IMG/VR virus record: IMGVR_UViG_3300032116_015796
Location: 1-64,000 of that record
Length of the DNA: 64,000 nt
Direction: 5' to 3' (one strand)
Source of the DNA: a virus
A model generated the notes under the pieces. The model was not told the origin of the DNA. It was given only the letters and a program-made list of their open reading frames with translations, and did no database searches. Each line of letters opens with the position of its first letter. Position 1 is the first letter of the stretch. This document shows, in pieces, positions 2,005-53,935 of this stretch. Both the position numbers and the translations under genes were made by a program.

Positions 2005-3687
2005 TTAACAAGAACCTGAAAATGTTAATGGGAACTGACAATCAAACGCGATAGTCCCTCCAGGACCTGTACCAACATATGTGTAAGTTCCGTCTGAAAA
2101 TATTAAACCGACAACACTTGTTGACCCGTTAAAATCAGTTATAGTATCATTAAGTTGTATTTGTAAAGTTTCTGGTGTTTGTATTAGTTGTAGTGAATTC
2201 GAATTTATTGATGTGGCGCCATTCCACAATGATGGGACTACAATGTTTCTAACACAATTAGGTGTTAATGTTGGGGTCGGTGTTGGGGTCGGTGTTGAAG
2301 AGATTGGGATAGTCGTATAAGATGGTGCTAAATTTGCTCCTAAATCAATTGAAACTGAAACAGTGGTTGTTTGTGAAAAAGGTGAATCAAAAGAACCACC
2401 AAAAATATTCCACCCTAAGAATTGATATCCTGGTTGTGGAACTGATTGAATACTATAAGACTGATTTTTATTTATTGTAAGTGTAGTGTCTGTTGTATAA
2501 GTAACCCCATCGAAAATTATTGATTGTCCTCCATTTATAGTTTGTATATATAAAGTTAATTCCGCTTGAGGTGTTGTTGAGGATGTTGGTGTTATTGTTG
2601 GTGTTGGTGATGGAGTCTCAGTATTTGTTGGTGTTGGTGTTGGTGTTGGAGTCTCAGTATTTGTTGGAGTAGGAGTTGGAGTTTCAGTATTTGTTGGAGT
2701 AGGGGTTGGAGGAACTTCAAATTGAATTTGAGTTGCCAAAATCGATATTGGAAAATCATTTGGTGAAATATTTCCAACAAATAGTTCTGCAGTTTTATTA
2801 AGTGAATCATAAGCTAATGATGGGTTTGTTACAATTGCTTGACCAACAACTTGATTTGGTAACATTATAACATTTGCCGTTACATCAATTGTTCCTCCAC
2901 CAACAAGTCCCAATCTAACAGTTAAAGGAATTGTTACATTGTAATTAATAGCGAAGTTAGAGTTTACGGTAAAAGTTGTAACCACAGAACCGCTAGATAT
3001 TTCGGTTGAAATTGTGTACTCAATTTCAGGGTCAACAAACATTAGATATTCATTTTCACCAACCTCAATATACTCATCGTTTTCAGTAATTATAGGATTA
3101 ATTAATTGTTGTATTGTTGTAGTTGTAGTTGTTGTAGGATTAAATGTAGTTGTAGTTGTTGTAGGATTAAATGTAGTTGTGGTTGTTGTAAAATTTGGGG
3201 TAGGTGTTGGTGGTGGACAAGTTGGACAACTTGGACATGGTGAAGTAGTGGTGGTTGTTGTAAAAGGCCCGTTTATACAACAAGGGAACTCTGATACATA
3301 ACAACTATCGTATGGTAAATCATCGGCAATGAAAGATTCTTGTATGTTGATGTAAAGTTTTTCTCTTATAGGTAAAATTAATACCCCATCATCATTTCTT
3401 AACATGAATTGACCTTCATATCGACCAACTTTATTAGTATCTCTATTTTGAAACTGATAATAAATGTAATATTCTGGTTCTGCGTTTGGGTCTATAAAAG
3501 TTTTCTCCACAAACCCTGCAGGTCTTGATGTTACTTTTGGAATACCTGTTGCAGTATCAACCATAGAAAAGAATATTGCAGACAATTCTATGGTCTTCAT
3601 AAAATTATCGAAATCACTTCTACCGTCTTTAACTACTTGTAATTTTAATAAAGGAAGAGTAGCATTTTTTTTAATGAAAAATTCCAT
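2005..3687 (-). CDS. Virion protein with poly-Thr and Pro-Thr linkers (tail/adhesin-like)
   Basis: 560 residues. The N-terminal ~140 residues (MEFFIKKNATLPLLKL...) look like a globular attachment domain. A CPSCPTCPPP stretch and three poly-Thr blocks separated by FNP follow, then a beta-rich domain, a TPTPTPTNTE linker (about 330-375), an InlB/Flg_new-like repeat domain (residues ~380-460, 'PGYQFLGWNIFGG'), a second short PTPT linker and a C-terminal beta domain ending in Cys. Ser/Thr/Pro-rich linkers of this kind are typical mucin-like spacers and possible O-glycosylation sites, which is an inference. It lies directly downstream of glycosyltransferase genes on the same strand and upstream of the solenoid protein. 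Length and composition suggest a virion adhesin; no exact homologue is recognised. Confidence 0.75.
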   Translation of the reverse strand: MEFFIKKNATLPLLKLQVVKDGRSDFDNFMKTIELSAIFFSMVDTATGIPKVTSRPAGFVEKTFIDPNAEPEYYIYYQFQNRDTNKVGRYEGQFMLRNDDGVLILPIREKLYINIQESFIADDLPYDSCYVSEFPCCINGPFTTTTTTSPCPSCPTCPPPTPTPNFTTTTTTFNPTTTTTTFNPTTTTTTTIQQLINPIITENDEYIEVGENEYLMFVDPEIEYTISTEISSGSVVTTFTVNSNFAINYNVTIPLTVRLGLVGGGTIDVTANVIMLPNQVVGQAIVTNPSLAYDSLNKTAELFVGNISPNDFPISILATQIQFEVPPTPTPTNTETPTPTPTNTETPTPTPTPTNTETPSPTPTITPTSSTTPQAELTLYIQTINGGQSIIFDGVTYTTDTTLTINKNQSYSIQSVPQPGYQFLGWNIFGGSFDSPFSQTTTVSVSIDLGANLAPSYTTIPISSTPTPTPTPTLTPNCVRNIVVPSLWNGATSINSNSLQLIQTPETLQIQLNDTITDFNGSTSVVGLIFSDGTYTYVGTGPGGTIAFDCQFPLTFSGSC

Positions 3688-3735: not shown

Positions 3736-5442
3736 TTAACTTTCTTTTCTTAATTTTCCATCATAGTGGTCAAATCGATTATGTTCAGTTGGTGTGAGTA
3801 ATAATAATCCTGATGATAAATTCCCTTTTATTGTTTCTTGAAACATGTGACTCATCCAAGTTTGTTCAAATGGATGACCCCACTTTGTTTCCAAGAACAT
3901 TTTTTTGTTACCTTCTTTTGAAACTATCTGAGGCCAATTACAATAATATACCTCTCCTAAAGCGTACGGAACATCTTTATGTATTTTAATCTTTGTAAAA
4001 ACTGTGTTTGGAGCATCAGGGTCTAAACCTAATTGTGGTAATGTTGGTTTTTCAGTCCAATGAGTTTCCCTGAAATTTTGTGGTACGTTATACCAACTCC
4101 ATTGAGTTGAGTTATTACCGAAAAATTCTGTGAAATTAAACTTTAAAAAATCTAATTCTTCTTTTTTAATAATTTCTAAAGATTTGTTAAACAAATTATT
4201 AACATATCTGTTAAAACCGTTTTTACAAGTTTCTCCAGGTTTTGGGTAAAAGAACATATCATCTTCAAAAAATAACATATATTCTAATTTTGTTTCATCA
4301 AAATGTTCTGCAATCCATTGTCTTCCACCACATATTCCTAAGTTATCCATTTTTATGTGGGTAAATCCGTAATCTTTACAAAGTTTTACATATTCAGGAG
4401 TTGTTGACAAATCAGTTGAGTTATCTAACAGGAATTTTTCTGTTTTATCTAAAAAGTCAGAATCATAATCTTCCATAGATTTAATTAAAGTCCTAAACTG
4501 ATTTGGACTATTAAAAGTTAAAACGTATAAACCTACCCCCTCAATTTGATTTTGTTTTATTGAATTTATTTTTTTAAGAATGTCTTTAGCGTCTTGTTTT
4601 TTTTGACCTTGTGTTTTAGTCACTAAAGAATCATTTTTCAAGTCTTCAAAAAACTTACCCACTAAACCATTTCCTTCAATTTCGAAATAGTTTATTAAAT
4701 TATGGTTTTTATATAACATTATTGAGAAGACAGATTCTTCAGTTCCCATATAACCTTTGGACAAAGTATCCTTCAATATAGAATAATATATTGTGTTAAT
4801 CTCACTTATACTATCTTTAGGTCCTCCAAAAAAACCTCCTCTTGGAACTAATTTTACATCATTACCCGCCCATTCATTTATTTTAGGATAACTAAAACCA
4901 TGGATTTCGTTATTTGCAATATATGGAAAACATACAAATGAAAATTTATTAATGTATTTGGTTAATTTGTCAAGTACTTTATCGTGTGTAAAATAACCTT
5001 GGTGAACGGTATTGGTAAGTCCCGCGTCAATCCAAAACATGTACTTAGAGTTGAACCTATCCAATAGTTTAGCATCGTGTAATAGAAAAACTTTTGACAT
5101 TACCAACGGATTGTACATCTCTAACTGAGCTTGGGTAGAATCTTTTAACCATCCAGCCTGATTAAACCATTTAGGGTCTTTTCTTATTTTTTGAATTAGT
5201 GGGTAAAATTCGTTTGTTTTAAACCAAGACTGATTTCTAACAATGAATTGAGTATTTGATTTATCTCTATGATGCCAAACAAATGACTCTAATTCAGGTT
5301 CTCCAAAAATAATCATTTTATTTTCAACCTTAAGTAATTGAGAAAACTTATCTTTATAGTGGTCAAACGACCTAGACCAACCTTCCTTAAGGTTATTTCT
5401 ACCTATATCCCATAACCCTGTTACAAGTGTAATTTCAGACAT
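3736..5442 (-). CDS. Two-domain glycosyltransferase (HtrL/YibB-like N-terminus plus GT-A C-terminus)
   Basis: 568 residues. The N-terminal ~270 residues resemble the HtrL/YibB/WlaTC family: 'LVTGLWDIGR' at the start, a 'QLEMYNPLVMSKVFLL' stretch and 'YMFWIDAGLTNTVH'. These are likely glycosyltransferases acting on surface sugars. From ~residue 295 a second GT-A (GT2-like) domain begins with 'GVGLYVLTFNSPNQFRTL' and carries a DxD-type metal site in 'MLFFEDDMFFYP'. The fusion suggests a bifunctional enzyme adding two sugars. The start overlaps the stop of the upstream methyltransferase gene by 1 nt, so the two are probably co-translated. Substrate unknown; because it lies between virion adhesin genes, modification of virion protein is plausible but unproven. 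Confidence 0.75.
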   Translation of the reverse strand: MSEITLVTGLWDIGRNNLKEGWSRSFDHYKDKFSQLLKVENKMIIFGEPELESFVWHHRDKSNTQFIVRNQSWFKTNEFYPLIQKIRKDPKWFNQAGWLKDSTQAQLEMYNPLVMSKVFLLHDAKLLDRFNSKYMFWIDAGLTNTVHQGYFTHDKVLDKLTKYINKFSFVCFPYIANNEIHGFSYPKINEWAGNDVKLVPRGGFFGGPKDSISEINTIYYSILKDTLSKGYMGTEESVFSIMLYKNHNLINYFEIEGNGLVGKFFEDLKNDSLVTKTQGQKKQDAKDILKKINSIKQNQIEGVGLYVLTFNSPNQFRTLIKSMEDYDSDFLDKTEKFLLDNSTDLSTTPEYVKLCKDYGFTHIKMDNLGICGGRQWIAEHFDETKLEYMLFFEDDMFFYPKPGETCKNGFNRYVNNLFNKSLEIIKKEELDFLKFNFTEFFGNNSTQWSWYNVPQNFRETHWTEKPTLPQLGLDPDAPNTVFTKIKIHKDVPYALGEVYYCNWPQIVSKEGNKKMFLETKWGHPFEQTWMSHMFQETIKGNLSSGLLLLTPTEHNRFDHYDGKLRKES

Positions 5443-6071
5443 TATTTTTTATATTTACAAACCCAAACTACTTTGGAAAATTTATTTTGATTATAAAATT
5501 CTAATCCGTTCTCTTTGGATGCTTCGGAAATATCATCCTCAACAATCTCCAACCAATTCCATATCTTATTATTAATCTCCTTTTCAAATGTAGATTTATC
5601 CACACAATAGTCATGTGCCATTATAAAATCACCTTGTTTAATAAACTTAGACAATAAATTGAATTCTCCTATCTTCCATCCTCCATCACAAAGTACAATT
5701 GTAGTACCCTCTGAACGAATGAAATTTTTTATATCTTCAGGTACGTCTTTAAAGTCCCCAAAAATATCCTCGACCCTAACATCAATACCTTTTTTAACCA
5801 TGTCACTATACCAAGGTCTCGCACTTATATCAAAAGTTAGGATTTTTGTATTCAATTCTAATTCTTCAGTGATTGTTTTTAAAAACATTGTAAACCCACC
5901 TAAAGCAGTACCTATCTCTAATATTCTTTTTGGTTTTACTTCTTTAATAAAATCATAAAAAACTTGATAAACATCATGGAATTGTTGAGCTGAGTGCCCA
6001 TCAAAAGAAGACAAACTGTCGTTTGCCAATAAATTTGTTTTTTTTGTTATTCTTTGTTCTATAGTTTTCAT
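5442..6071 (-). CDS. Class I SAM-dependent methyltransferase
   Basis: 209 residues. Motif I is clear, 'RILEIGTALGGFTMFLK' at about residues 50-66, followed by 'ILTFDISARPW' (acidic residue after beta-2), 'IVLCDGGWK' and 'GDFIMAHDYC'. The layout resembles cephalosporin-hydroxylase-like or Methyltransf_24 enzymes found in surface-polysaccharide clusters. It sits in a chain of glycosyltransferase genes with 13 nt to the upstream gene and 1 nt overlap to the downstream one. Probable role: O-methylation of a sugar, or SAM-dependent modification of a glycan made by its neighbours. Substrate cannot be read from the sequence. Confidence 0.75.
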   Translation of the reverse strand: MKTIEQRITKKTNLLANDSLSSFDGHSAQQFHDVYQVFYDFIKEVKPKRILEIGTALGGFTMFLKTITEELELNTKILTFDISARPWYSDMVKKGIDVRVEDIFGDFKDVPEDIKNFIRSEGTTIVLCDGGWKIGEFNLLSKFIKQGDFIMAHDYCVDKSTFEKEINNKIWNWLEIVEDDISEASKENGLEFYNQNKFSKVVWVCKYKK

Positions 6072-6084
6072 AATAAAAATATAA

Positions 6085-6792
6085 TTAAAATCTTATGTGT
6101 GTAACTCCTGTATTAGCAACAAACTTAAAAAAATTTCGTAACTCAAACATTTTTTTCCAGTCCATAACCATTTTAGCATCCACTGCTGACATACCAATCT
6201 CAACCCCCTCAGCGAATGCCCATATATCATTTTTAACCCCAAACTCATTTCGTTCTTTCCATTTTTGAACGAAGACTTTTAATTTTTGATTATTTTTAAA
6301 AACTAAAAATTGTTCATTTACTACTTGAGCGTTATCATAAAAATTAGTTTTTAATAAACCGTAAGGTTCTACTTTGTGTCTCCAAAAACACTTCTCAATG
6401 TCCCACTTACTACTACCTATTGAGTGAGGTCTTTCGTAGATAAAATCAAACTGTGATTTGTTCATCGAATTTAAAAAATCAACAAATTTATTTTCACTGT
6501 AACCATCATGAATATCCCAATCCGCATCAAAAAAAATAATAAACTCAAAATTTCTTTTTGAGCATTCCATAACAGGAATATATTTTAAATTATAGTTAAA
6601 GTAATTTTTTATTGTGGTAGTCTCTTTTTTATCAAAGTTGATAAAATCAACGTTTTCAATTTCAACAAAGGGACAATCGGTTACTATTATTATTTTATGA
6701 CCTTTAGAAATCTTATTTAAATTTCTCGCAAAATTACAAGCACTTAAAAAATATTTTTTACCTATCGCAATTGTTGTAAAAACGTAACTCAT
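6085..6792 (-). CDS. GT-A fold glycosyltransferase
   Basis: 235 residues. It starts 'MSYVFTTIAIGKKYFLSACNFARNL', typical of nucleotide-diphospho-sugar transferases of the GT6/GT8-like kind, and has a DxD motif in 'FIIFFDADWDIH' near residue 95. 'NEQFLVFKNNQKLKVFVQKW' matches the acceptor-side region of such enzymes. Its start overlaps the upstream gene's stop by 4 nt. Predicted cytosolic, using a nucleotide sugar; donor and acceptor unknown. Confidence 0.7.
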   Translation of the reverse strand: MSYVFTTIAIGKKYFLSACNFARNLNKISKGHKIIIVTDCPFVEIENVDFINFDKKETTTIKNYFNYNLKYIPVMECSKRNFEFIIFFDADWDIHDGYSENKFVDFLNSMNKSQFDFIYERPHSIGSSKWDIEKCFWRHKVEPYGLLKTNFYDNAQVVNEQFLVFKNNQKLKVFVQKWKERNEFGVKNDIWAFAEGVEIGMSAVDAKMVMDWKKMFELRNFFKFVANTGVTHIRF

Positions 6793-7481
6793 AATTTATC
6801 CGCAATTTTTAATGTTTCGGGATTAGACGGACCGTTATCATGTACAATAATTGGGTTAAACCTTTCGATAAAAATTTTACCATTTTTTATCTGAACGTGT
6901 TTTTTAGAATTTAAAGTACTCATAAAAAATTCACAGTCAGAATCAATTATAATATCATCATTCAGTAAGAACTGAATTGTCCATTTACCTTGGTCATCAA
7001 TTCCTGTATCATAAACATTATTAATAATACTTTTCATATGATTCAGTACTTTTTCAGTGTATCCGAAATAAGTTCCTGAGTTCAAATATCTGTATTCTGA
7101 GTTTATTTGTTTCTTATTATATAAATGGGTATACGAATTGGGTGGCCATAAACATTGTTCTGCACCCATAATAATTGAACAATTTTTTGATTTAAATTTT
7201 TCGATTATATTTTTTGGTGAAGAATAGAAATTTGTGTCTGTAGCGTCTAAGAAAAGTATAAATTCATATTTACCTAAAATATTTTGTTCTAAATACTCAT
7301 ACAATTTTACTATTTTATAAAAATATAGTTTATCGTAATAAGAATCACTATTACAAATACCATTGTATCTTACTACGTGTATATCTGAATTCTCAAAATA
7401 GTTTAAAGCATTCTTAACAAAAATAGGGGTATAATTTGAGGGGTAGTCAAATAATACTGTGATTAATGCAATGTTTTTCAT
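6789..7481 (-). CDS. PLOD/LH3-type glycosyltransferase
   Basis: 230 residues. The order of motifs follows the glucosyltransferase domain of procollagen lysyl hydroxylases (PLOD/LH3): 'FILFLDATDTNFYSSP' (D-x-x-D metal site, ~residues 76-91), 'IIMGAEQCLWPPNS' (the AE..CWP motif), 'YRYLNSGTYFGYTEKV', 'DDQGKWTIQFL' and a late 'IVHDNGPSN'. Known members glucosylate hydroxylysine-linked galactose; homologues occur in giant viruses. A target on protein rather than lipid is therefore conceivable here but not shown. It overlaps both neighbours by 4 nt. Confidence 0.75.
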   Translation of the reverse strand: MKNIALITVLFDYPSNYTPIFVKNALNYFENSDIHVVRYNGICNSDSYYDKLYFYKIVKLYEYLEQNILGKYEFILFLDATDTNFYSSPKNIIEKFKSKNCSIIMGAEQCLWPPNSYTHLYNKKQINSEYRYLNSGTYFGYTEKVLNHMKSIINNVYDTGIDDQGKWTIQFLLNDDIIIDSDCEFFMSTLNSKKHVQIKNGKIFIERFNPIIVHDNGPSNPETLKIADKL

Positions 7482-8722
7482 AAATTACCGACTAATCTCT
7501 CACACCAACCTTTAGATACTGAGTGAGGCCAAACAACCCAATATTTAGGTTTTTCTTTAGCGTTAAACTCTCTCCATATTTTACAGTACTTGTCAGGGTC
7601 GGTCATCATTCTGTTTATTTCATTAATATCAGCATCTCTTCTGAAAATTGTTTCATCTTTTTCATCATGGAAAGCAACAACCCAAAAATCGTAATCTGTT
7701 TCAGGTACTTGACTAAAACTAACATCAATACAGTGTTTAAATATTGAAAGGAAACTATCTTCCCATTCTTCTTCTGTTTGGTAAATTGTTGGATTAGGGG
7801 GGTAGTTTTTATCTAAAGTGTATTGTTGTACGGCTCTTTTAGAAAATCTTAAACCTGAGTAAATCTCATAATCTTTTAAGGTTCTCTCAGTTCCGAAACC
7901 GTGGTTTCCGAAATCAATGGCGGTTTCTCCATCCATACCAAATAGTTGTCTATTCTTTTTATGAGAACTTTCATTTTTCTTAAACCACTCTTTATCGTCA
8001 TCCCACTGTTTGGTTCTATTTTTTCTTGTGTATTCATGCCAAATAACAGTTCTATGTGGATGAAACAAATCATACCCGTGAGTAAATGCTCTTACCGCAA
8101 TTGATATCTCTTCCCCATGAAAATAAAATTCAGGGTCGTGTTGTACTTCTTTAGCAAATTGTCCTAAAGTAAAACAGAAGTGTGCAGAATAAAATCTTGC
8201 GGGTACTGGTTCTGTTAATTGTCCCCATCCAGGGATTGTTTCAGGTAAGAAAAATACCGCTCCTTCGGGAATAAATCTATCAAAAGCCATTCTCCATGGT
8301 TCTTTAACTCTACCTTGAGGGTCGTTATCAGGGTCAAATGATGAAACATAAGAAGTTAGTAAAGGTTTTTCAAACCCTTTTTCTTGTAATTGTTTAATCA
8401 TGTTAATTAGTGTCTCATCCCAATCCTTATCAAATCTCATATGAGAATCTAATTGTAATGTGTACTCTTCGTCTTGATATAATTGTTGTACTTTATTTCT
8501 TGCCCAACAAACTCCTTTTGATTCTGAGTACAATACATTTTCGACTCTAAATCTATGGTCAAGTTCAAATTCTGTTAAGTCGTCAAATTTGTCATCTGGA
8601 TGATATTGTCGACATATTCCTACTCTTAAATTTTCAGGGTATTTTGCATTTTCCAACATGTTATTTAATGTTGGTATAAGTTGTGGGTCTCTATAAGAAG
8701 CAATTTGGATAAAAATTTTCAT
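7478..8722 (-). CDS. GT60-like polypeptide GlcNAc-transferase family glycosyltransferase
   Basis: 414 residues. It matches the GlcNAc glycosyltransferase family (Pfam Glycosyltransferase (GlcNAc), CAZy GT60): 'IFIQIASYRDPQLIPTLNNM' at the N-terminus, 'NLRVGICRQYHP', 'SKGVCWARNKVQQLYQDEEY', 'TLQLDSHMRFDKDWDETL' (D-x-H metal site), 'FYFHGEEISIAVRAFTHGYD' and 'GNHGFGTERTLKDYE'. Characterised GT60 members add GlcNAc to hydroxyproline of Skp1 (Dictyostelium) or to Thr of mucins (Trypanosoma cruzi). That makes it notable next to Thr/Pro-rich virion proteins. It is the first of five glycan genes downstream of the BspA-like adhesin gene, and no TATTTAT motif precedes it, so it is probably read through from upstream. 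Confidence 0.82.
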   Translation of the reverse strand: MKIFIQIASYRDPQLIPTLNNMLENAKYPENLRVGICRQYHPDDKFDDLTEFELDHRFRVENVLYSESKGVCWARNKVQQLYQDEEYTLQLDSHMRFDKDWDETLINMIKQLQEKGFEKPLLTSYVSSFDPDNDPQGRVKEPWRMAFDRFIPEGAVFFLPETIPGWGQLTEPVPARFYSAHFCFTLGQFAKEVQHDPEFYFHGEEISIAVRAFTHGYDLFHPHRTVIWHEYTRKNRTKQWDDDKEWFKKNESSHKKNRQLFGMDGETAIDFGNHGFGTERTLKDYEIYSGLRFSKRAVQQYTLDKNYPPNPTIYQTEEEWEDSFLSIFKHCIDVSFSQVPETDYDFWVVAFHDEKDETIFRRDADINEINRMMTDPDKYCKIWREFNAKEKPKYWVVWPHSVSKGWCERLVGNL

Positions 8723-8769: not shown

Positions 8770-10596
8770 TTAAATTCCTCCTCCGTCAGTTATTGTCCAT
8801 AATTTTGTTCCTGTTAGGTATGTTCTACTTGCACCTGCAGTTGAAATCGTGTATATAGAGCTTCCTCCATCAAATGACACTCCTGATTGTAATGAGCCAC
8901 CTAAAGATGCCCACCCATTTAGTAAAGAATCATAGTTTACGGTTGATAATGTTATACCGTTAAACATTGCCGTCATATTTGTTACATTAGAAACATTCCA
9001 TCCACCTAAATTTTGGTCAAATAAATTGGCAGATTGGAACATAGAGCCCATATCGGTTACAGACGAGACATCCCAACTACTAATATTTTGGTTAAAGTTT
9101 GTTGTGTTACCAAACATCGTAAACATATTGGTAACAGACGAAACATTCCAACCACCAATTGGTTGATTAAAAGGGGTATTATAGAACATATACTCCATAT
9201 TTGTAACTACTGAAACATTCCATAAATTTATACCTAAAGAACCTCCGTTGTTAAAACTTGTAGCATTACCAAACATAAAATACATATTTGTAACTGAAGA
9301 TACATCCCATAAACTAATATCTTGATTGAATACACTCGCTTGTGCAAACATTGTAGACATATTAGTAACCGAAGAAACATCCCAATTTCCAAGTGGTTGA
9401 TTAAATGATATTGCATTTGTAAACATACCCCCCATATTTGTAACATTAGAAACATTCCATGTATTAATATTTTGATTAAACATATTTGTACCACCAAACA
9501 TTACGAGCATTGACGTTACATTTGACACGTCCCAACTTCCAATATATTGATTAAAGTTAGACGCATTCTGAAACATAGTACCCATATTGGTTACAGATGA
9601 AACATCCCAACTATCCATATTATTAACAGTTGTTAAACTTGAACATGATGCGAACATTGAATATAAGCTTGTAATACCTGTCAAATCAGGTGTATCAGTA
9701 ACTCCCGTTAAAACCAAGTTAGTACACGCATTAAACATCGATGCGTTTGAATTAGACTCCCCTCTTAAAGGTCCCCATTTTATAATTTCTTTTATATTAT
9801 CTTTATATAATGTTGCATGAGTCGCAAAATTCCAACCTTCAATTGTTCCTGTAATTGTAATTGTATAATCACCAGGTGACGCGTAAGTGTGAGTTCTATT
9901 GGCGTATGAGTTAACAGATGTATTACCATCACCCCAATTAATTATTCCCGAATAAGTTCCTGTTGGTGAGTACGGAAGTTCAATTGTAGTTGACGCAGAC
10001 CATACTGAAATAAATGCAAAAGGTAATGGAGATGGAGTTGGTGTTAACGTAGGAGTCACAGTTGGGGTAGGGGTTGGTGTCATTGTTAGGGTAATTGTGG
10101 GTGTTGGTGTCGGTGAAAGAGGGGGTGGTAATGGTTCACAAGCACCCATAACACAAGGAATTCCAACCGATATTAAAACCCCATCCTCTGCGGTAGGTAA
10201 TTTCCCACAAAATAATAATTCGGTTGTACCGTCAATTAACCCATAGAATATTGTCCCGTTACATTGAGTATAACTAAAATCTTTCTTTACTGTGGTTATA
10301 TTACTAAACTGAATACAATTACATTGAGCAATTGTTGGTGTAGGAGTCATTGTTGGTGTCATTGTTGGTGTAGGAGACGGACAACTATACAGTTGAAAAA
10401 ATTCACAACCGTTAGAATCTATTAATTTAACTATAACAGAACTAACACTATCTAAAGGATAAACTAAAGTATATAGAAAATTTGGAGGAATATTAATCCC
10501 GACACCTGCCGACGCACAATATGTTAGAGTCGAATCACAAACATATACATCGTAAGGTCCCGTACCAGTTGCTCCTGTTATTTCTATTGTCTGCAT
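8770..10596 (-). CDS. BspA-like repeat adhesin with PKD-like domain and Pro-Thr linkers
   Basis: 609 residues from the ATG at 10596 (MQTIEITGATG), chosen because an upstream in-frame ATG lies inside the preceding gene and encodes only a frame-shadow (HQHQQ...). Order: small N-terminal domain (1-70), PTPTMTPT linker, a Cys-containing domain, a second TPTPT linker, a PKD-like domain (~185-240; 'IINWGDGNTSV' and 'HTYASPGDYTITITG'), then nine ~25-residue repeats of the type [SG]W[DN]VSSVTNMxxMFxxAxxFNQ. These match the 'surface protein 26-residue repeat'/DUF285/BspA-like family used for adhesion. It is 4 nt after the preceding PT-rich gene. Likely a tail-fibre tip or capsid adhesin; virion location is inferred. 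Confidence 0.8.
   Translation of the reverse strand: MQTIEITGATGTGPYDVYVCDSTLTYCASAGVGINIPPNFLYTLVYPLDSVSSVIVKLIDSNGCEFFQLYSCPSPTPTMTPTMTPTPTIAQCNCIQFSNITTVKKDFSYTQCNGTIFYGLIDGTTELLFCGKLPTAEDGVLISVGIPCVMGACEPLPPPLSPTPTPTITLTMTPTPTPTVTPTLTPTPSPLPFAFISVWSASTTIELPYSPTGTYSGIINWGDGNTSVNSYANRTHTYASPGDYTITITGTIEGWNFATHATLYKDNIKEIIKWGPLRGESNSNASMFNACTNLVLTGVTDTPDLTGITSLYSMFASCSSLTTVNNMDSWDVSSVTNMGTMFQNASNFNQYIGSWDVSNVTSMLVMFGGTNMFNQNINTWNVSNVTNMGGMFTNAISFNQPLGNWDVSSVTNMSTMFAQASVFNQDISLWDVSSVTNMYFMFGNATSFNNGGSLGINLWNVSVVTNMEYMFYNTPFNQPIGGWNVSSVTNMFTMFGNTTNFNQNISSWDVSSVTDMGSMFQSANLFDQNLGGWNVSNVTNMTAMFNGITLSTVNYDSLLNGWASLGGSLQSGVSFDGGSSIYTISTAGASRTYLTGTKLWTITDGGGI
8945..9615 (-). repeat. Nine 75-nt repeats encoding the W[DN]VSxVTNMxxMF unit
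   Basis: Nine consecutive ~25-residue units; one is 24 and one 29 residues. The WDVSSVTNM and MF..A..FNQ cores are conserved and the positions between vary. At DNA level only the core is shared. Confidence 0.85.
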
Positions 10597-10600
10597 AATT

Positions 10601-11074
10601 TTACGAACATTGTGTTGGAGTTGGTGTTGTAGTTTTTGTTGGTGTTGGTGTTGGTTTAGATGGTAAGCAACCACAAGGGTTTGTACAACTTACAGTTGGT
10701 GTTGGTGTCGGAGTTGGTGTTACTGTATTTGTTGGTGTCACGCTTGGTGATGGACTTATACAAGGTGTTAATGTCGGGGTGACTGAAGGTGTTAATGTCG
10801 GAGTTGGTGTTTGTGTCTTTGTTGGGGTAATTGTAGGTGTCGGTGTAGGTGTTGGTCTTGGTACGTTTAAATAATACACACAATTATTGAACAATGTTGT
10901 TATAGTATATATACCATATATTTCTTGTGGTGGATTAAGTAATCCTGCATTAAAAGTAAACGGTAATTCGTGGTCACCTAAATTCAAAACTAATTCAGTC
11001 CCCTGTGGATTGAACAAAATGTTTGCAATCTCACCATCATAATTTATACTTTGTATTGTAATAATTTGATTCAT
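10601..11074 (-). CDS. Small virion-type protein with long Pro-Thr linker
   Basis: 157 residues. Residues 1-72 form a compact beta-rich domain ([16 protein letters not shown]...). The rest is a [17 protein letters not shown]-type linker interrupted by a short Cys-containing segment '[11 protein letters not shown]'. It sits between the papain-domain protein (3 nt upstream) and the BspA-like adhesin (4 nt downstream). The same kind of linker follows the N-terminal domain of the next gene, so this may be a duplicated attachment module or a subunit of the same appendage. Function unknown. Confidence 0.65.
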
Positions 11075-11077
11075 TAA

Positions 11078-14000
11078 TTAAAAATTGTTTTCTATTGCTA
11101 GACAGACTTCACCGTTCTCGTTTATTAATCTCTGCATATCAGAGAAACTAATAAAGGCATAACCATTTTTGCCCCAAGAGCGTCCCCAACTGTTTTTAAT
11201 TCTAAATAGTTTAGTTCTTAAATCAACCCCATTTATAACATAAGCATGACCACCAACTATTCTTCCATTCACCTTTATTAATCCATTTTTATTTGGTCTA
11301 AACATACCTTGATACCAATTAGTACCAACTACAACAGGTCCTTTAACTAAAACTGTATTAATCAAAACCGCAAGGTCATATGTCCATAAATAAGATGATA
11401 TTCTTCCTGTGTTTTTCAAAAACTTAGCTCCACCTCTTACCGATGTTCCGTCATAGTTTTCGCCAAACCACTCATCTAATTTTTGAGCTTGTTTATAAAT
11501 TGTTGTTGGGTTTACTATCGGGGGGACTCCTCCGTGTTTAATAGGTCCATCTTCAATCCAATGAGCCCAAGCGTAACCAACACATTGTGGAGTACTTCCT
11601 TGATTTCCCCACCATTCCTCAGAATCCCAGTATTTTGAAGTCAATGTTGTTGGTCTGAATTGCAATTTATTTTCGATTAAGAACAATCTATCTCTTTTAT
11701 CTTCAATATAAACTCTTCCTAATGGTAAAGGTTCGGTCGTTGTTGTAGTTGTGGTAGGATTGAAAGTTGTAGTAGTTGTTGTTGGGTTAAATGTTGTTGT
11801 GGTTGTTGTAGGATTGACAGTAGTAGTTGTTGATGTTGGTGTATCCCCTGTTGTGTAATTAAAATCATCTGGTAGACATACTAAAGTTGAGCAATCAGGA
11901 CAATCAGGATTAAACATCCTAAAAGTGTTTTTTAACAACAAGAAGTTATGTTTCACTTCAGGAGCCGAAAGAGGTGTGATATACATTCTAAATTGTGAAA
12001 TCGCGCCTTCAAAAGTTCCTGCAAAATTTTGTTCTATTTGGATGTTAGTTTTTAATCCGTTTAAAGAAGTTCCTGTCAAATCATTAGTCGGGAAATTTTC
12101 AGGGTCTTGTTGGTAAGGTCCGAAATATAAAATTTCTTCTCTAGTCACCAAAGTCAAAGTATTTGTATTAGACGGATTTGTTATTACGGGAGTGTCATTC
12201 CAATGAGCAATTAGTACTCCTGATTCATTATTTAAGTTAGTTAATATTTGAGGTTCACCAAAACAATCTATATAGTCAATGTCAGTTGTTACATCACCAA
12301 TTGAATAGTTCCAAACTGAACATGCTCTGAATGTTAAGTTTTCTCTTAACCCTTGAGTTCCTCCACCCCAAGACACGTTGAAAGGAACTCCAACTTGTTT
12401 TTCTTTATCGGTGTTTAGTGCTCTTGGGATTATTTCCTCAAAATCTTCTATAGTCCAAAATAACTTACCATTGATATAAATTTTAAGTCTTCCTTTTCTA
12501 TATTTTTTTTCTAATAACCATTTCTCATTAAGATTTACAATTTCAATTTTTTCCGCCTCTTCCGCTTCAGGACGAGTATATGGTACGGTAATTAGTGAGG
12601 AAGTATTATTCGCTAAAGATTCTAAATATAACTTTTTAGTTATATCACCTAAACCTCCTCGATACCATAAATCACAATCATCAAACCAAGTATATCTTTC
12701 CCATACGGCATCGATTTGAAACCAATGTTCCAAATCTAACCATGCGGGGTTAATTTCAAAACAATCAGGATATATTGGAGGTGAACAGTAATCTAAAACA
12801 GTATAACCAGTTGTATAGGTTACCCCTGTAGTAGAACAAGAACCTGTTGTTTCACAGTCTCCTGTAAATAATAAAACTCTAACCCCTATCTGAGGGTTTT
12901 TAGGTTCTCCACATAATCTAAATGATAAAGCGTTAGACATTGCATCATATAAAGGGTCTTTTTCACAAGTGTCCTCAATTGACGTAAATCCCGTATTAAC
13001 ATTACAAGGTAAACAATCATTACATGTATTACACTTAGTACATGAAGGTGTACAAACAGGTGGTAAAATGCAACCGTCAGATATTGGTGTAGGACTTGGT
13101 GTTGGAGTTGGCGTTGGAAAAATAATAGAATCACATTTATGTGTCTGACATTCCCACCCACACGATTCACATCTTATTTCTCCACATCCACATCCACATG
13201 AAATACTTTTTTGAGCATTACCCTTACACTTATCACAACCATAATTAACATGAGTGTCATGTATTCCTCCTTCAGACCTTGGTGGATAAACAAAAATACA
13301 ACGACTATTTGTTATTGTTTTGTTACAACAAGCACAAGTTGTTAAACCTGATAATGGGGTAGTTATACGAGTATATCCTGTGAAACAATTTGGAGTTCCG
13401 TCAGCATGATGATAAAATTTATTTTCGGCTCTTGTTCCAAAATAAAAGAAAGTGTTTTTATTATTAGGATAAATTTTATTTAATGTTGTCTCACCAGGTC
13501 CTGGAAAATATTCATTAATTAACCTTGGTTTCAATATCATTTCAACTGACCAACCTTTGTTCATCCTTTCAGGAAAAATATCATAATCATATCCGAACAA
13601 CCTATAAAATCCTTGATAGAATCCACCATATAGTTCATGGTATCTACCTTCAAACGGACTAAATTTACTTACCACTTCATAAAGTACAACGTCAGGAAAA
13701 CCTGAAAATCTAACAATATCATTACCTGTATTTGCGGTAACTTGAAAAAGTTTTAGTCTTCTGTCAAAACTTAATCTATCAAATTTTTGAGTGTTATTTA
13801 GTAAACCTTCAGTAAACGTTATTGTTTGTCCTGTCATATATTCCACAAGACCGTTATCAACTCCTGTTAATCCTATATCACAAGAAGTGGATGAGGACAA
13901 ACATTTTAAATCAATTTCTTTTGGGTTGTAATAATTTTGGGAAACAAAAACATTGTTTTTATTATAGTTTTTGTAAGTAAGAGTTAAATTCTGTGCAGTT

Positions 14001-14188
14001 TCAATATTATTAATGTCGAAATAAAAAGGTAATCTATTACCATGTGTTTGGGCAATTAAATAAGGAGAGAAAACAACCTCCTGATTAAAATCCATTTCAT
14101 CATTAGTCAATGACATATCATGTGTATCCAAAGATAACTTCGGAAACAAATTAGGTCTAGCATATTGATTTATATTTTGACTCGCCAT
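11078..14188 (-). CDS. Large virion protein with lectin-like region, Cys clusters and C-terminal papain-like (C1A) peptidase domain
   Basis: 1036 residues. The N-terminal ~770 residues look like a tail/adhesin body. 'GWSVEMILKPRL' and 'AISQFRMYITPLSAPEVKHN' are typical of LamG/concanavalin-like domains, and a Cys-rich insert (~265-400) with many CxxC pairs may bind metal. A poly-Thr/FNP linker (~790-822) joins a C-terminal papain-like domain: Gln863 and Cys869 in 'QGSTPQCVGYAWAHW' (the Q-to-C spacing of papain), His981 in 'GGHAYVING' and Asn999 in 'RIKNSWGRSWGKNGYAFIS'. The triad and oxyanion Gln all appear present, so activity is plausible. Possible roles are self-cleavage of the fibre or degradation of host surface protein (inference). 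It is first in its minus-strand gene string, behind its own TATTTAT motif. Confidence 0.85.
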   Translation of the reverse strand: MASQNINQYARPNLFPKLSLDTHDMSLTNDEMDFNQEVVFSPYLIAQTHGNRLPFYFDINNIETAQNLTLTYKNYNKNNVFVSQNYYNPKEIDLKCLSSSTSCDIGLTGVDNGLVEYMTGQTITFTEGLLNNTQKFDRLSFDRRLKLFQVTANTGNDIVRFSGFPDVVLYEVVSKFSPFEGRYHELYGGFYQGFYRLFGYDYDIFPERMNKGWSVEMILKPRLINEYFPGPGETTLNKIYPNNKNTFFYFGTRAENKFYHHADGTPNCFTGYTRITTPLSGLTTCACCNKTITNSRCIFVYPPRSEGGIHDTHVNYGCDKCKGNAQKSISCGCGCGEIRCESCGWECQTHKCDSIIFPTPTPTPSPTPISDGCILPPVCTPSCTKCNTCNDCLPCNVNTGFTSIEDTCEKDPLYDAMSNALSFRLCGEPKNPQIGVRVLLFTGDCETTGSCSTTGVTYTTGYTVLDYCSPPIYPDCFEINPAWLDLEHWFQIDAVWERYTWFDDCDLWYRGGLGDITKKLYLESLANNTSSLITVPYTRPEAEEAEKIEIVNLNEKWLLEKKYRKGRLKIYINGKLFWTIEDFEEIIPRALNTDKEKQVGVPFNVSWGGGTQGLRENLTFRACSVWNYSIGDVTTDIDYIDCFGEPQILTNLNNESGVLIAHWNDTPVITNPSNTNTLTLVTREEILYFGPYQQDPENFPTNDLTGTSLNGLKTNIQIEQNFAGTFEGAISQFRMYITPLSAPEVKHNFLLLKNTFRMFNPDCPDCSTLVCLPDDFNYTTGDTPTSTTTTVNPTTTTTTFNPTTTTTTFNPTTTTTTTEPLPLGRVYIEDKRDRLFLIENKLQFRPTTLTSKYWDSEEWWGNQGSTPQCVGYAWAHWIEDGPIKHGGVPPIVNPTTIYKQAQKLDEWFGENYDGTSVRGGAKFLKNTGRISSYLWTYDLAVLINTVLVKGPVVVGTNWYQGMFRPNKNGLIKVNGRIVGGHAYVINGVDLRTKLFRIKNSWGRSWGKNGYAFISFSDMQRLINENGEVCLAIENNF

Positions 14189-19323: not shown

Positions 19324-19910
19324 CACCAAATTTAATGGATTTACAAGAGCAATTAAAAAAGTTGCAAGATATGGTTAATAGCGAAGAGGAGATTGACTAT
19401 GAAGATATAATGAGTGAACTTGGTTTAGATGTAAAACAATTAGAAGAAGACATGAAAAACTACACTCCTCAGTTACCACTTAAATTTTCTAAATTACATC
19501 CTGACGCAGTTTCTCCAAAATACAATTATCCAACCGATTCAGGTTTTGATTTACATTCAGTTGAGGATTTGGAAATCCCTCCTTTTGGTAGAATCTTAGT
19601 CCCGACAGGTTTATCATTCGATATTAAAGATGGGTATGAAATTCAAGTTAGGTCTAAAAGTGGTCTATGTATTAAACAAGGACTAATGGTTCTTAATTCA
19701 CCAGGAACTGTAGATAACGGGTATACAGGTGAAGTACAAGTAATTGTTTTTAACACAAATAACCACAAGGTCTCGATTCCAAAAGGGATGAAAGTAGGGC
19801 AAGCAGTTCTTTGTCCTGTTGTAAATGGGAAGTGGGTTGAGTTAATCGAAAAAAATAAAATCTCTGAAAAAGACAGAGGTAGTAATGGTTTTGGAAGTAC
19901 AGGGATATGA
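19320..19910 (+). CDS. dut: dUTPase (dUTP diphosphatase) with N-terminal extension
   Basis: 196 residues. All five trimeric dUTPase motifs are visible: I 'PTDSGFDLHS', II 'VRSKSGLCIKQG', III 'LNSPGTVDNGYTGEVQV' (catalytic Asp in VDNGY), IV 'GMKVGQAVLCP' and V 'RGSNGFGSTGI' at the extreme C-terminus. Converts dUTP to dUMP plus PPi, preventing uracil incorporation and feeding dTMP synthesis. The first ~50 residues (LQEQLKKLQDMVNSEEEIDY) are an acidic helical extension absent from minimal dUTPases. Overlaps both neighbours by 4 nt (ATGA). Confidence 0.93.
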   Translation: MTPNLMDLQEQLKKLQDMVNSEEEIDYEDIMSELGLDVKQLEEDMKNYTPQLPLKFSKLHPDAVSPKYNYPTDSGFDLHSVEDLEIPPFGRILVPTGLSFDIKDGYEIQVRSKSGLCIKQGLMVLNSPGTVDNGYTGEVQVIVFNTNNHKVSIPKGMKVGQAVLCPVVNGKWVELIEKNKISEKDRGSNGFGSTGI

Positions 19911-21400
19911 TTACTATAATTTATTCAACACATAAAGATTCAGAATATAATAACAAATTTAGACAACATTTGTTACAAACTGTTGGCTTAAAAGATGTTC
20001 AAATCTTAGAATATCAAAATAATAATCAATATTCACTTGCACAAGTTTACAATAGTGGAATAACCGAATCAATTTATGATATTGTTGTTTGTTGTCATAA
20101 TGATATTAAACTTGAAAAAAATTGGGGTAAAAAATTACTTGAAGATTTTTCAAACAATACAGAATTCGGAATAATTGGAAAAGCAGGTTCTTGTTATTTC
20201 CCTGAATCAGGAGTTTATTGGGAAAAGATGAATAAGACCATGGTTGGTCAAGTTTATCACCATCCTGAAGGACAGAATAAATGGTTGAGTCAATATTCAT
20301 CTAAATTACCGTTTTTAATACCCGTTGTTACTGTTGATGGTTTGATTATTTGTTTTGATAAAACTAAAATCAAATATAAATTTGATGAGTCTTTTGGTAA
20401 GTTCCATTTTTATGACCATGGATTTTGTTTACCTAATTACATTAACGATGTTAAAATCGGTGTTACCTCATCATTTGAGATTACTCACCAATCTGTAGGT
20501 CAACCAAACCAAGAATTTTATGATAGTAAAGAAAAATTCTTAAAAAAATGGGGACATATGTTACCAATGGATTTAAAACCAAAAGAAGTTTTTTTTGAAA
20601 ATATTGTAGAAAAACCTATTAAGAACATTGGTAAAGTGGCGATTATCATACCTACAAAAGGTAAAACGGATATGTTATTTGAGTGTGTAAAATCTTTTTA
20701 CACCCACTGCAATTCAGACCTGTTTGATATTATAATTGCCGATACGGGGTCATCTGAAGAAGAAAAGGAATGGATAAAAACCAACATTTTAAATTTAGGT
20801 AATATTAAATTAATCGAATATGATTATTATAATTTTGCTAAAGTTAATAATGATGTTGTTAAAAATTACACAAATGATTACGAATTTATTTTATTCTGTA
20901 ATAATGACATAAAAATACTAAACAATGTTGTTTACGGATTACTTGAAAACTTTAAAAAGTATCCCCAAGCAGGGACTATAGGTTGTAGACTTCATTATGA
21001 AGATAACACCGTTCAACATAATGGATTGGCTGCGAAAGTGGATTCTAACAAATTTTTTAGGGTTGATAACAAATCCACAGGTTCTTACTATTCATACACC
21101 ATAAATAGTAAAGAGGTTTTAGGTAATACCGCCGCTTTATTTATGGTTAGAAAAAATGTTTTTCAAAAATTAGGGATGTTTAATGAACAGTATTCAAACT
21201 GTTTTGAAGACGTAGAATTTAATCTTAAATCAATTGTTACGGGTCACAGGAACTATATTTGTGGTAATTGTGTTGCATATCATTATGAAAGTAAAACTAG
21301 AGAAAGGAATACCGAAGTTGAGAAACAAGATTATTTTAATAACCTAATACCTTTTGTTCAAAAATACCTTGATAAATTTATCACTAAATTATATATTTAA
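19907..21400 (+). CDS. Tandem GT2-type glycosyltransferase
   Basis: 497 residues with two GT-A domains. Domain 1 (1-~225): 'MITIIYSTHKDSEYNNKF', 'YDIVVCCHNDIKLEKNWG' (H-N-D in place of DxD) and 'KFHFYDHGFC'. Domain 2 (~240-497): 'VAIIIPTKGKTDMLFECVKS', 'DYEFILFCNNDIKIL', 'VLGNTAALFMVRKNVFQKLG' and 'YSNCFEDVEFNLKSIVTGHR', typical of GT2 rhamnosyl- or other transferases. Probably adds two sugars in sequence. Overlaps the dUTPase stop by 4 nt. Confidence 0.82.
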   Translation: MITIIYSTHKDSEYNNKFRQHLLQTVGLKDVQILEYQNNNQYSLAQVYNSGITESIYDIVVCCHNDIKLEKNWGKKLLEDFSNNTEFGIIGKAGSCYFPESGVYWEKMNKTMVGQVYHHPEGQNKWLSQYSSKLPFLIPVVTVDGLIICFDKTKIKYKFDESFGKFHFYDHGFCLPNYINDVKIGVTSSFEITHQSVGQPNQEFYDSKEKFLKKWGHMLPMDLKPKEVFFENIVEKPIKNIGKVAIIIPTKGKTDMLFECVKSFYTHCNSDLFDIIIADTGSSEEEKEWIKTNILNLGNIKLIEYDYYNFAKVNNDVVKNYTNDYEFILFCNNDIKILNNVVYGLLENFKKYPQAGTIGCRLHYEDNTVQHNGLAAKVDSNKFFRVDNKSTGSYYSYTINSKEVLGNTAALFMVRKNVFQKLGMFNEQYSNCFEDVEFNLKSIVTGHRNYICGNCVAYHYESKTRERNTEVEKQDYFNNLIPFVQKYLDKFITKLYI

Positions 21401-21402
21401 AT

Positions 21403-22032
21403 ATGGCTAATGGAATATACAAAATAACGGAAGACTTTGAAAAAGAACTGTCCGATTACACAAAATCACCGTATGTTGTTACGGTAGATAATCAAAGTAA
21501 TGCTTTATTTTTGGCGTTAATGTATGAGAAAGTAAGTGGTATGGAAATTGAAATCCCCTCTCGTACTTACCCCTCAGTACCATGTGAGATAATTCATGCA
21601 GGTGCAAAAGTTAAATTTAAACCTGTGGAAGGTAAAACAATTAAAGGGTCATATCAATTGTATCCTACTAAAGTTTGGGATTCGGCTCTTTCTTTTACTT
21701 ATGGAATGTACAAACCAAATACCCATATGTGTATTTCTTTTACAGGTCCTTATAAACATTTTAAATTATCTAAAGGTGGAGCAATCTTAACTGACGACTA
21801 TGACGCTTATTTATGGTTTAAAAGAGCGAGATACAGTGGCAGAAGAGAATGTTCTTATCATGATGACCATTTTGATATGTTAGGATGGAATTTCTATATG
21901 ATGCCTGAGTTAGCTGCGAGAGGAGTACTTTTGATGAAACAATTTTATAATGTTGACGGAAGTCCTAAACATAATGAGGATTTAGAATTACCTTACCCTG
22001 ATTTATCCAAGTTCGATGTCTATAAACAATAA
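21403..22032 (+). CDS. Short DegT/DnrJ/EryC1/StrS-like sugar aminotransferase
   Basis: 209 residues, against ~370 for a typical DegT-family PLP aminotransferase. Visible landmarks: 'TVDNQSNALFLALMY' (substrate/PLP entry), 'IEIPSRTYPSVPCEIIHAGA', 'KVWDSALSF' (the Asp pairing with the pyridine N), 'FTGPYKHFKLSKGGAILTDD' (likely Schiff-base Lys in PYK) and 'RYSGRRECSY', then 'NFYMMPELAARGVLLMKQF'. The C-terminal ~150 residues of the usual fold are absent, so it may be a minimal or inactive form. Its role would be amination of a nucleotide keto-sugar. Confidence 0.65.
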   Translation: MANGIYKITEDFEKELSDYTKSPYVVTVDNQSNALFLALMYEKVSGMEIEIPSRTYPSVPCEIIHAGAKVKFKPVEGKTIKGSYQLYPTKVWDSALSFTYGMYKPNTHMCISFTGPYKHFKLSKGGAILTDDYDAYLWFKRARYSGRRECSYHDDHFDMLGWNFYMMPELAARGVLLMKQFYNVDGSPKHNEDLELPYPDLSKFDVYKQ

Positions 22033-22723
22033 ACATATCTGTGTTTTAATATGTTTTAATAACTATGAACATATAGTTAAATGTTTCGAATCTATAAAAA
22101 ATCTACCTTTAGATTTTTTTATAATAGAAAACCCATCTAAAAATTCCGATAAAATTCAAAAATATTTTAAAGAACAAAAATTAAAAGGGTATGTTAGATT
22201 CGAAGAAAATATTACAAATAACGCGGTTGATATAATAAGAGAAGATTACTCACCTTTATTTCAATCTTATGAATATATAACTTTTTCAGATTGTGATTTA
22301 TTTACTGATTCCTCCTCTTCATTATTTTCCGAAATATATAGAATATTAGAATATGAAGAAGTTGGAGTTTGTTGTACATCATTATGTATGGATAACCTTC
22401 CTAATGTTCCTGACGCAAATGGTTGGATTCCTAACCCAATATCAATTCACGAAGATTATATTAATGTAAATACAGGTGTTCATTTCATGACTATGAAACA
22501 AAAAAATTATTCATTATTATATGGGACAAAATTTAAAGACACCTTAATGGTTTCTTTAATTAGAAGTAAGAACCTAAAATGGGTTTCAACAAAAGAAAAC
22601 AAATCAATTCATTTGACTTGGGATTTGTACTACCAAGGTAACGAGTACTATAATTTTAAAATTGAGCGTGGTTTAGAATCATTGTGGTCACATAACGAAA
22701 CATCGGATTATATTATTTTATGA
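22016..22723 (+). CDS. GT-A glycosyltransferase
   Basis: 235 residues. It begins 'MSINNKHICVLICFNNYEHI', GT2-style, with 'FFIIENPSKNSDKI' and a DxD in 'EYITFSDCDLFTDSSSS' near residue 90. 'YINVNTGVHFMTMKQKN' resembles the acceptor loop of such enzymes. Starts 17 nt inside the DegT-like gene and overlaps the next gene by 4 nt. Substrates unknown. Confidence 0.7.
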   Translation: MSINNKHICVLICFNNYEHIVKCFESIKNLPLDFFIIENPSKNSDKIQKYFKEQKLKGYVRFEENITNNAVDIIREDYSPLFQSYEYITFSDCDLFTDSSSSLFSEIYRILEYEEVGVCCTSLCMDNLPNVPDANGWIPNPISIHEDYINVNTGVHFMTMKQKNYSLLYGTKFKDTLMVSLIRSKNLKWVSTKENKSIHLTWDLYYQGNEYYNFKIERGLESLWSHNETSDYIIL

Positions 22724-23295
22724 AAAGAGCGTTAATTGGTTTTGGTGGTCATGCGAGAGAAGTTATCGCTCAAATGAAAGTTAATTTACCTTGTTTTGTT
22801 GATGATTCTTTTTTAACTAAAGAAACCCTACCGTTATCTAGATTTAATCCAAATGAGTTTGAAATAATGGTTGCGATTTCAGACCCAAAAAAAAGAATGG
22901 AAATTGTAGGTCGATTACCAAAAGAAACTAAATATTTTACATTTATCCACCCTACCTCACTTATAATGTCTGAAGTTAAAATAGGTCACGGTTCTTTTAT
23001 TGGGGCGTATTCAGTAATTACGACAAATATAACAATTGGTACTCACTGTATTTTAAATCGAGGTAACCATATAGGACATGATTCAATAGTCGGAGATTTT
23101 TTTAGTGCAATGCCGTGTTCAGTTATTTCGGGTAATTGTTTAATTGGTGACAGAGTTTATTTCGGTACTAATTCATCCGTAAGAGAAAAAATTGAAGTAT
23201 GTGATGATGTAACTATCGGTTTAAATTCAGGTGTGGTCAAACACATAACAGAAAGTGGGGTGTATGTAGGTGTCCCCGCAAAAAAAATAAAATGA
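22720..23295 (+). CDS. PglD/NeuD-like sugar acetyltransferase
   Basis: 191 residues. Short N-terminal Rossmann part 'RALIGFGGHAREVIAQM' (residues 3-19) then a left-handed beta-helix of hexapeptide repeats ('VKIGHGSFIGAYSVITTNIT', 'IGTHCILNRGNHIGHDSIVG', 'IGDRVYFGTNSSV') ending 'GVYVGVPAKKIK'. This is the layout of PglD/NeuD enzymes that acetylate amino sugars or sialic acid with acetyl-CoA. With the DegT-like gene nearby it could N-acetylate an amino sugar. Overlaps neighbours by 4 nt on both sides. Confidence 0.82.
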   Translation: MKRALIGFGGHAREVIAQMKVNLPCFVDDSFLTKETLPLSRFNPNEFEIMVAISDPKKRMEIVGRLPKETKYFTFIHPTSLIMSEVKIGHGSFIGAYSVITTNITIGTHCILNRGNHIGHDSIVGDFFSAMPCSVISGNCLIGDRVYFGTNSSVREKIEVCDDVTIGLNSGVVKHITESGVYVGVPAKKIK

Positions 23296-26744: not shown

Positions 26745-26746
26745 AA

Positions 26747-27370: not shown

Positions 27371-27387
27371 TAAACTCAATTTGAATT

Positions 27388-53212: not shown

Positions 53213-53935
53213 TTAATATCCTAAATAATCGGATAATTTTTTCATTAAGTCAAGAGATTTGTTTGCTGAAGGTCCAACTTCTCTTTCTGCCCTCATTCTA
53301 TTTTCTTCTTCTAAGTTCTCCTCAAACTGATGTCTTCCATCGGGTTCTAAGAAAAGATAAGCTCCTGGGGTGGATGGGGATGATACCAAGTCAAAACAAA
53401 TTAATTCAAAATCATCTTGAACTTCATTTTGTTCCCCAACTTTTTTAAGTGAACCAACCCCTCTTGAAGAGATTCCTAATGTAACACCTTGTCTTAAATA
53501 ATTTGCAGCTAAATCTCCTTTAGTTGAACAAACTCCTCTTTCATGGAAACCAGGACTTGTTAATAGTTTAAGTTTTCCCATAAGTACAGGTCCGTCCCAC
53601 CATATATCAGTTATAATATGAGATACTCTATCTAAGTCAATTAAAGATGATTCAGGGTGGTTTAACTCAGAAAGTGATGTACCTTTCTGAATCATCTTTT
53701 TGTAGTTTTCAGCTTCTCTTTTTAAAATTCTTTCAGGGTAAATTCTACCGTTTCTATTTGGAGTATTGTATTTTTGTAATACCGCATAAAACTCAAATGG
53801 TTTTGAGTAATCCAAAAGATTTTTAGATTCCATGATATATTGATTATTGTCGGTTTTAGGATTTATATATCCTGCATCATACTCAATCAATATCCCTTTT
53901 CCTGTTTGGCCAGGTTGTATAATTTGTAAACTCAT
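53213..53935 (-). CDS. Prohead core protease, T4 gp21-like (peptidase S80-like)
   Basis: 240 residues. Key features: 'NTPNRNGRIYPERILKREAE' (typical N-R-N-G-R-x-Y), 'GTSLSELNHPESSLIDLDRV' (catalytic His in L-N-H-P), 'VTLGISSRGVGSLKKVGEQN' (nucleophile Ser in I-S-S-R-G) and 'FELICFDLVSSPSTPGAYLF'. Cuts scaffold, MCP and internal proteins at [I/L]-x-E sites during prohead maturation. Its presence supports the CTS-like cleavage sites seen in several neighbouring genes. Conserved location in the head cluster. Confidence 0.92.
   Translation of the reverse strand: MSLQIIQPGQTGKGILIEYDAGYINPKTDNNQYIMESKNLLDYSKPFEFYAVLQKYNTPNRNGRIYPERILKREAENYKKMIQKGTSLSELNHPESSLIDLDRVSHIITDIWWDGPVLMGKLKLLTSPGFHERGVCSTKGDLAANYLRQGVTLGISSRGVGSLKKVGEQNEVQDDFELICFDLVSSPSTPGAYLFLEPDGRHQFEENLEEENRMRAEREVGPSANKSLDLMKKLSDYLGY

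Follow-up and report, generated by a model that had tools for sequence, protein, structure and literature searches.

The window analyzed here, a stretch of 64,000 nucleotides, is part of an 80,256-base virus record and includes T4-like head genes, with profile matches to a terminase, a major head protein, a portal, and a head maturation protease. The best-ranked terminase matches among 2543 records are less than 30% identical and come from uncultured phages, a Microcystis phage, and Flavobacterium phages. The gene of interest is transcribed leftwards and comprises a large body, a linker, and a C-terminal peptidase domain (Table 1). Its start codon choice is supported by the conservation of N-terminal residues, as M1, Q4, N5, I6, and N7 are invariant in an alignment of 32 bodies, each cut where its BLAST match begins. 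Elsewhere in the window, the phage encodes a beta-keto acid cleavage enzyme (BKACE; 24639-25469, E 1.8e-58), and a 27-bp tandem repeat of 16 copies (1-439) lies within a minus-strand frame that runs off the window start.

Table 1. Features of the peptidase gene and associated genes in the window; codon coordinates of the four catalytic residues are arithmetic from the position of the open reading frame
Feature	Coordinates	Strand	Basis
Whole gene, 1036 aa	11078..14188	-	ATG-started ORF; N-terminus kept across 32 aligned bodies
Carrier body (residues 1-778), probably a surface protein of the virion; weak concanavalin-like signal	11855..14188	-	
Linker, residues 779-822; Thr-rich, with 27-nt repeat	11723..11854	-	
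Predicted C1A papain-like peptidase domain, residues 823-1036	11081..11722	-	Profiles, predicted structure, residue conservation
LGR...D.RD..YLI segment, N-terminal part of the peptidase family, residues 823-842	11663..11722	-	Alignment
Gln863, oxyanion-hole glutamine by papain analogy	11600..11602	-	75/75 rows
Cys869, nucleophile by papain analogy	11582..11584	-	75/75 rows
His981, catalytic base by papain analogy	11246..11248	-	75/75 rows
Asn999, third catalytic residue by papain analogy	11192..11194	-	74/75 rows, remaining row incomplete
157-aa gene adjoining the peptidase gene	10601..11074	-	Homologue fused to body end in L049
560-aa protein; its first ~140 aa serve as another peptidase carrier (8 distinct proteins)	2005..3687	-	
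Separate head maturation protease	53213..53935	-	PHROG profile (phrog_207, E 3e-43)

The preliminary description proposed a papain-like protease domain at the end of this protein and suggested structure prediction as a check, and both profile searches and modeling bear it out. The last 230 residues match Pfam Peptidase_C1 (PF00112) with E 2e-7 and 31.7 bits (29.2 bits with the whole protein; the cut-off is 20.7), and residues 823-1033 match phrog_16701, annotated as 'peptidase', with E 5e-57 over profile positions 5-231 of 234. Peptidase_C1 is matched by all 27 family members scanned (Pfam, E 0.1 or better), and the further Pfam families found at E 0.1 include C1_2 (22 members), C70 (3), C39_2 (2, best E 0.046), and C2 (1); an NCBIfam scan of five proteins returned no families. 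An AlphaFold model of the domain, built from 27 sequences, has a mean pLDDT of 87.8 and a pTM of 0.87, and among PDB structures it most resembles xylellain (Foldseek E 1.5e-10; Z 20.6, 202 residues, 3.2 A), with a cathepsin B next (Z 17.8). Profile alignment to xylellain pairs the Q-x5-C, GGHA, and NSWG motifs, and the first match in a viral structure library is a Streptomyces phage C1A protein. The model and profiles thus support a predicted papain fold of the C1A type, and a chance motif match is rejected by the Pfam and PHROG scores together with the predicted structure.

The four catalytic residues lie at the positions and in the motifs first described. In an alignment of 75 rows (the window, 62 IMG/VR sequences, one metagenome-assembled genome [MAG] contig, and 11 cultured phages), Gln863, Cys869, and His981 are kept throughout and Asn999 in all but one row, which is an incomplete sequence. 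Patterns able to include Cys869 or Asn999 fetched 34 of these rows; the 41 chosen otherwise show the same conservation. Between the window and its nearest relative, the domain has dN 0.042 and dS 1.48, much like the carrier body (dN 0.050, dS 1.06), and omega has a median of 0.22 across some 250 pairs whose dS is below 1.5, although these figures are rough because several dS values are near 1 or above, close to saturation. The peptidase domain is under purifying selection and is probably active; its conserved catalytic residues and this selection lead us to reject a decayed copy.

The domain is complete and C-terminal, as first described, but its start lies at residue 823 (11722), upstream of the 11700 boundary initially drawn, because the conserved 'LGR...D.RD..YLI' stretch belongs to the domain and recurs, less strictly, in standalone relatives. 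Within this segment, G824 is kept in 63, R825 in 65, R832 in 65, and D833 in 57 of the 75 rows. In several relatives (L013, L235, L236, L241, L244, and L245) a Pro/Thr-containing stretch separates the segment from the peptidase core, and the segment may thus dock back as a separate piece.

The carrier body is less readily identified. A search with the 778-residue body plus its linker (819 aa) found nothing among 50,697 cultured phage records at E 1 but 76 loci in IMG/VR. Of 32 members scanned, 5 match Laminin_G_3 on the body (best E 0.012) and 11 match phrog_8510, annotated as 'virion structural protein' (best E 9e-4). The AlphaFold model of the body is poor (pLDDT 45): a Foldseek search with it gave no match at E 0.001, and the best second-look structure match of this low-confidence model is to a CBM40 (Z 11.5, 173 residues, 3.9 A). 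A PDB sequence search with the body profile gave no matches at E 1. The only tail PHROG matched by the whole protein is phrog_14018 (E 0.006), across residues 776-818, which correspond to the Thr linker. The length of 1036 residues given in the preliminary description is correct, but its tail-type identity depends on weak matches (Laminin_G_3, phrog_8510, and CBM40), and we regard a lectin-like or tail identity of the body as weak because of its low-confidence model. At locus L048, the gene next to a related body matches virion structural (E 1.6e-8) and tail-fiber (E 4.5e-6) families, and the carrier is probably a virion surface protein. We note that the carrier has about 20 cysteines by eye count between residues 285 and 395, approximately (13000-13340), several of them invariant in 32 relatives; this stretch is possibly metal-binding.

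The poly-Thr linker noted initially is present in the window protein, but it is a local feature. Among 43 proteins joining body and peptidase, linker length has a median of 21 aa and a range of 8-530, no common linker motif is apparent, and only 12 of the 43 linkers have 40% or more Thr plus Pro, so we do not use poly-Thr as a defining feature. Closely similar 27-nt repeat units, encoding approximately FNPTTTTTT, are found at 3118-3190 and 11739-11836, in the linkers of two different genes; both genes are peptidase carriers in this phage group, and the shared repeats could be sites of domain exchange. Sugar-related genes are numerous at 3736-8722 and 19907-30037, with matches for 8 of 10 scanned proteins, including a GlcNAc transferase, GT_PLOD, Glycos_transf_1 and 2, a rhamnosyl O-methyltransferase-like protein, and a hexapeptide transferase. 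Their products might decorate Thr-rich linkers.

The peptidase is an optional ending of the body. Of 68 distinct bodies, 24 have the peptidase at their end and 26 extend fewer than 40 residues further; 10 carry another domain, 5 finish in a short Thr-rich stretch, and 3 are incomplete. This tally is restricted to loci fetched by the body (from the 76 loci plus the best 80 of 384 matches) because the remaining loci had been found via the peptidase; it excludes bodies without a match at both ends, and it counts distinct sequences, as several loci are from the same contig. No peptidase is encoded anywhere in 18 records picked for a body without it, of which 4 are at least 149 kb, although the records may be fragments; all three positive controls were detected. 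Eight of the 10 other body tips were scanned in Pfam together with two inserts, giving DUF285 in one and VWA in two (one above the cut-off), with no Pfam match for the other seven of the 10 sequences scanned. DUF285-, LRR-, and VWA-like tip domains are usually surface-binding. At locus L049, a homologue of the window's 157-residue protein is fused to the body end (81/153 identical, partly Pro/Thr-rich). The carrier gene's neighborhood also includes a DUF285 repeat protein with a PKD match below the cut-off (8770-10674), and DUF285 tips the carrier in relative L390. A second site of insertion lies near body residue 357-400, where L096 and L084 have extra domains.

The peptidase is likewise found on other carriers. 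Of 62 distinct peptidases, 42 are joined to the body (5 of these just to its second half), 8 to the N-terminal domain of the 560-residue protein family (the 560-anchor, provisionally labelled BppU), and 2 to another shared N-terminal domain; 5 have other N-termini and 5 are standalone. On a tree of these 62 rows, from which L234 (5' end missing), the 12 rows from neither IMG/VR nor the window, and rows with under 150 aa of the domain are left out, carrier type changes at least 9 times compared with 17 or more in 200 shuffles, with changes counted without direction and the state 'other' pooling five proteins with differing N-termini; the carrier is thus mostly inherited yet repeatedly changed. 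Trees with a single clade are rejected for both the 560-anchor rows (p 9.6e-177) and the body rows (p 1.9e-4), with carrier groups assigned by BLAST and a quick tree already viewed before these tests. One of the remaining carrier types shows weak sequence kinship to a gene in the window, in that the N-terminal domain of the 157-residue protein distantly resembles the carrier of the L219 and L009 peptidases; 12 of 41 residues are identical to the L219 carrier (E 3e-6 for a single comparison), and another comparison with L009 or L219 gives no match at E 1e-4.

The 560-anchor has a varied set of tips. Its family of 65 distinct proteins, a tally that includes loci fetched via the peptidase, has 45 with other tips, 9 with no tip, 8 with the peptidase, and 3 that are cut. 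Ten of these tips were scanned, with DUF285 in three, LRR_5 in one, a P-domain in one, an InlB-type repeat below the cut-off in one, and no Pfam match in four; the 560-residue protein itself has no Pfam match. The distribution of the peptidase is patchy and exchangeable, and because relatives hang the same domain on different proteins, it is suggestive of an exchangeable tool with which to cut host-cell proteins. On both the body and the 560-anchor the peptidase replaces tips resembling binding domains, as would be expected if the domain were mainly a binding module and its catalysis incidental. We consider this very improbable, in that a pure binder is expected to lose some catalytic residues and these are invariant in 75 rows save the one incomplete sequence.

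A single copy is present in every one of 40 records selected for encoding the peptidase, although a second could lie outside because many of these records are fragments. The single copy and the C-terminal position after a linker are both consistent with a role in virion maturation or self-release, in which the peptidase would act during assembly on its own linker or on a different structural protein of the phage. The head maturation protease is encoded separately, however, the linkers have no apparent common motif, and the 18 records with a peptidase-free body show no peptidase elsewhere, although perhaps as fragments. The LGR segment is also present in standalone forms and is thus not a fusion-specific cut site; we have set it aside as an autocleavage motif. 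A maturation role is therefore rather improbable, and the earlier suggestion that the peptidase releases part of the fiber is weakly supported, given the absence of an apparent common linker motif and the changes of carrier.

Peptidase relatives are encoded on 192 IMG/VR stretches, of which the best 80 were used. In genome contigs, the best 80 of 197 matches include one standalone relative with 49% identity, on a 3.1-kb Tissierellales MAG contig (L105), and the next is 27% identical. The 11 cultured-phage relatives that are annotated or translated are all standalone proteins of 214-286 aa. Of 12 cultured phages inspected, 5 have the relative within or next to lysis genes. Four are Gordonia phages (Aleemily, Lilbeanie, Forza, and GMA2), where the gene is flanked by lysin and holin genes, separated from the lysins by a single hypothetical gene, or itself annotated as a 'putative lysin'; in the fifth, Arthrobacter phage Mufasa8, it adjoins a holin gene. 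These locations suggest a lysis or cell wall enzyme that would cut peptide bonds of peptidoglycan or envelope-linked proteins, either locally at entry or during lysis, and papain-fold NlpC/P60 proteins are sometimes tail-associated, according to PMC7824862. However, all 27 scanned members match Peptidase_C1 and none matches CHAP or NlpC/P60 (Pfam, E 0.1), and no annotated lysis gene is beside the relative in the stretches inspected of XacN1, RAS14, BillNye, Quesadilla, Shaeky, or GX15bay (Lak-B7 is without annotation). We thus view a lysis function as unlikely.

The standalone forms, of about 230 aa and without a carrier, also raise the prospect of a host take-over enzyme, either delivered with the genome or made intracellularly, for which fusion would merely ensure packaging. 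The standalone peptidase gene at locus L254 lies upstream of one for a DNA polymerase, an arrangement also compatible with an intracellular role. But the large body, to which 42 of the 62 distinct peptidases are joined (5 to its second half), would then have to enter the cell, and we regard take-over as quite improbable.

Phage surface enzymes are known mostly for acting on sugars and peptidoglycan, and several known systems resemble parts of this one. The domain is similar to xylellain (PDB 3ois), one of the short bacterial C1A peptidases, in its fold and its Q-C-H-N residues, and xylellain presumably also has an N-terminal extension; however, the two are 24% identical over aligned residues, and xylellain is a free bacterial protein, whereas here the domain is the end of a phage protein. 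The PHROG 16701 peptidases, including those of XacN1, RAS14, BillNye, and Gordonia and Mycobacterium phages, belong to the same family and have the same catalytic residues in 11 aligned sequences, but these 11 cultured proteins are standalone, in contrast to the C-terminal fusion here. NlpC/P60 and CHAP enzymes, the latter also phage-tail-associated, have in common the papain-like superfamily fold and a phage tail setting but are of different families. Polysaccharide depolymerase tailspikes and polypeptide-capsule peptidases are similar in the job proposed here, the enzymatic clearing of the host surface by what would be an active peptidase, and they differ from this domain in folds and substrates. 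The T4-type head maturation protease is likewise a phage protease, but is a separate gene in this phage.

Phage C1A peptidases are already known, as PMC10380794 states that xylellain-type C1A peptidases have been acquired by Myoviridae and Siphoviridae, and virion-associated polypeptide-cleaving enzymes are mentioned in PMC5380687. The preliminary description considered C1A domains on virion proteins to be rare; in the accessible portions of the open-licence PMC literature we found no report of such a fusion, which agrees with this, but C1A peptidases of tailed phages are in print and relatives are numerous in IMG/VR. The novelty is in the carriage of the domain, not in the fold.

Overall, we favor, at slightly better than an even chance, the interpretation that a xylellain-type C1A peptidase displayed at the tip of a virion surface protein cleaves host surface proteins and is one of a pool of swapped tips. 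The peptidase would be displayed at the flexible C-terminal end of a fiber or baseplate-associated protein, where it may cleave surface-exposed host proteins and so strip away a protein layer or a receptor during adsorption; alternatively, cleavage could free the virus from debris after lysis, much as polysaccharide depolymerases act on glycans. It would be a member of a C-terminal tip pool swapped among several anchor proteins. We infer the virion location, the proteolytic activity, and the host surface protein as substrate in each case. Cutting of host surface proteins is plausible and is the leading reading because the C-terminal site that the peptidase occupies has DUF285 or VWA in some relatives. 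PMC7824862 notes patchily distributed peptidases that may target the host. We count against a virion tip that the body has no cultured-phage match, that standalone forms exist, and that 14 of the 21 records with the peptidase off the body have no body match. Of the other seven, 6 have a clear body in a frame separate from the peptidase, which counts in favor of movement between carriers, and 1 has a distant body match.

A recurrent and exchangeable protease tip, if true, would mean that protein layers or receptors are among the things that phages strip from their hosts, and the pattern of one copy and several carriers is a natural experiment on the purpose of the tip. More tentatively, these phages might keep a single displayed cysteine protease as a mobile catalytic tip, in competition with LRR-like and VWA adhesion tips for the ends of several virion anchors, and the protease would determine which protein-coated hosts can be entered. 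Such a movable tip would be the protein-cutting counterpart of the glycan depolymerases, shuffled between anchors.
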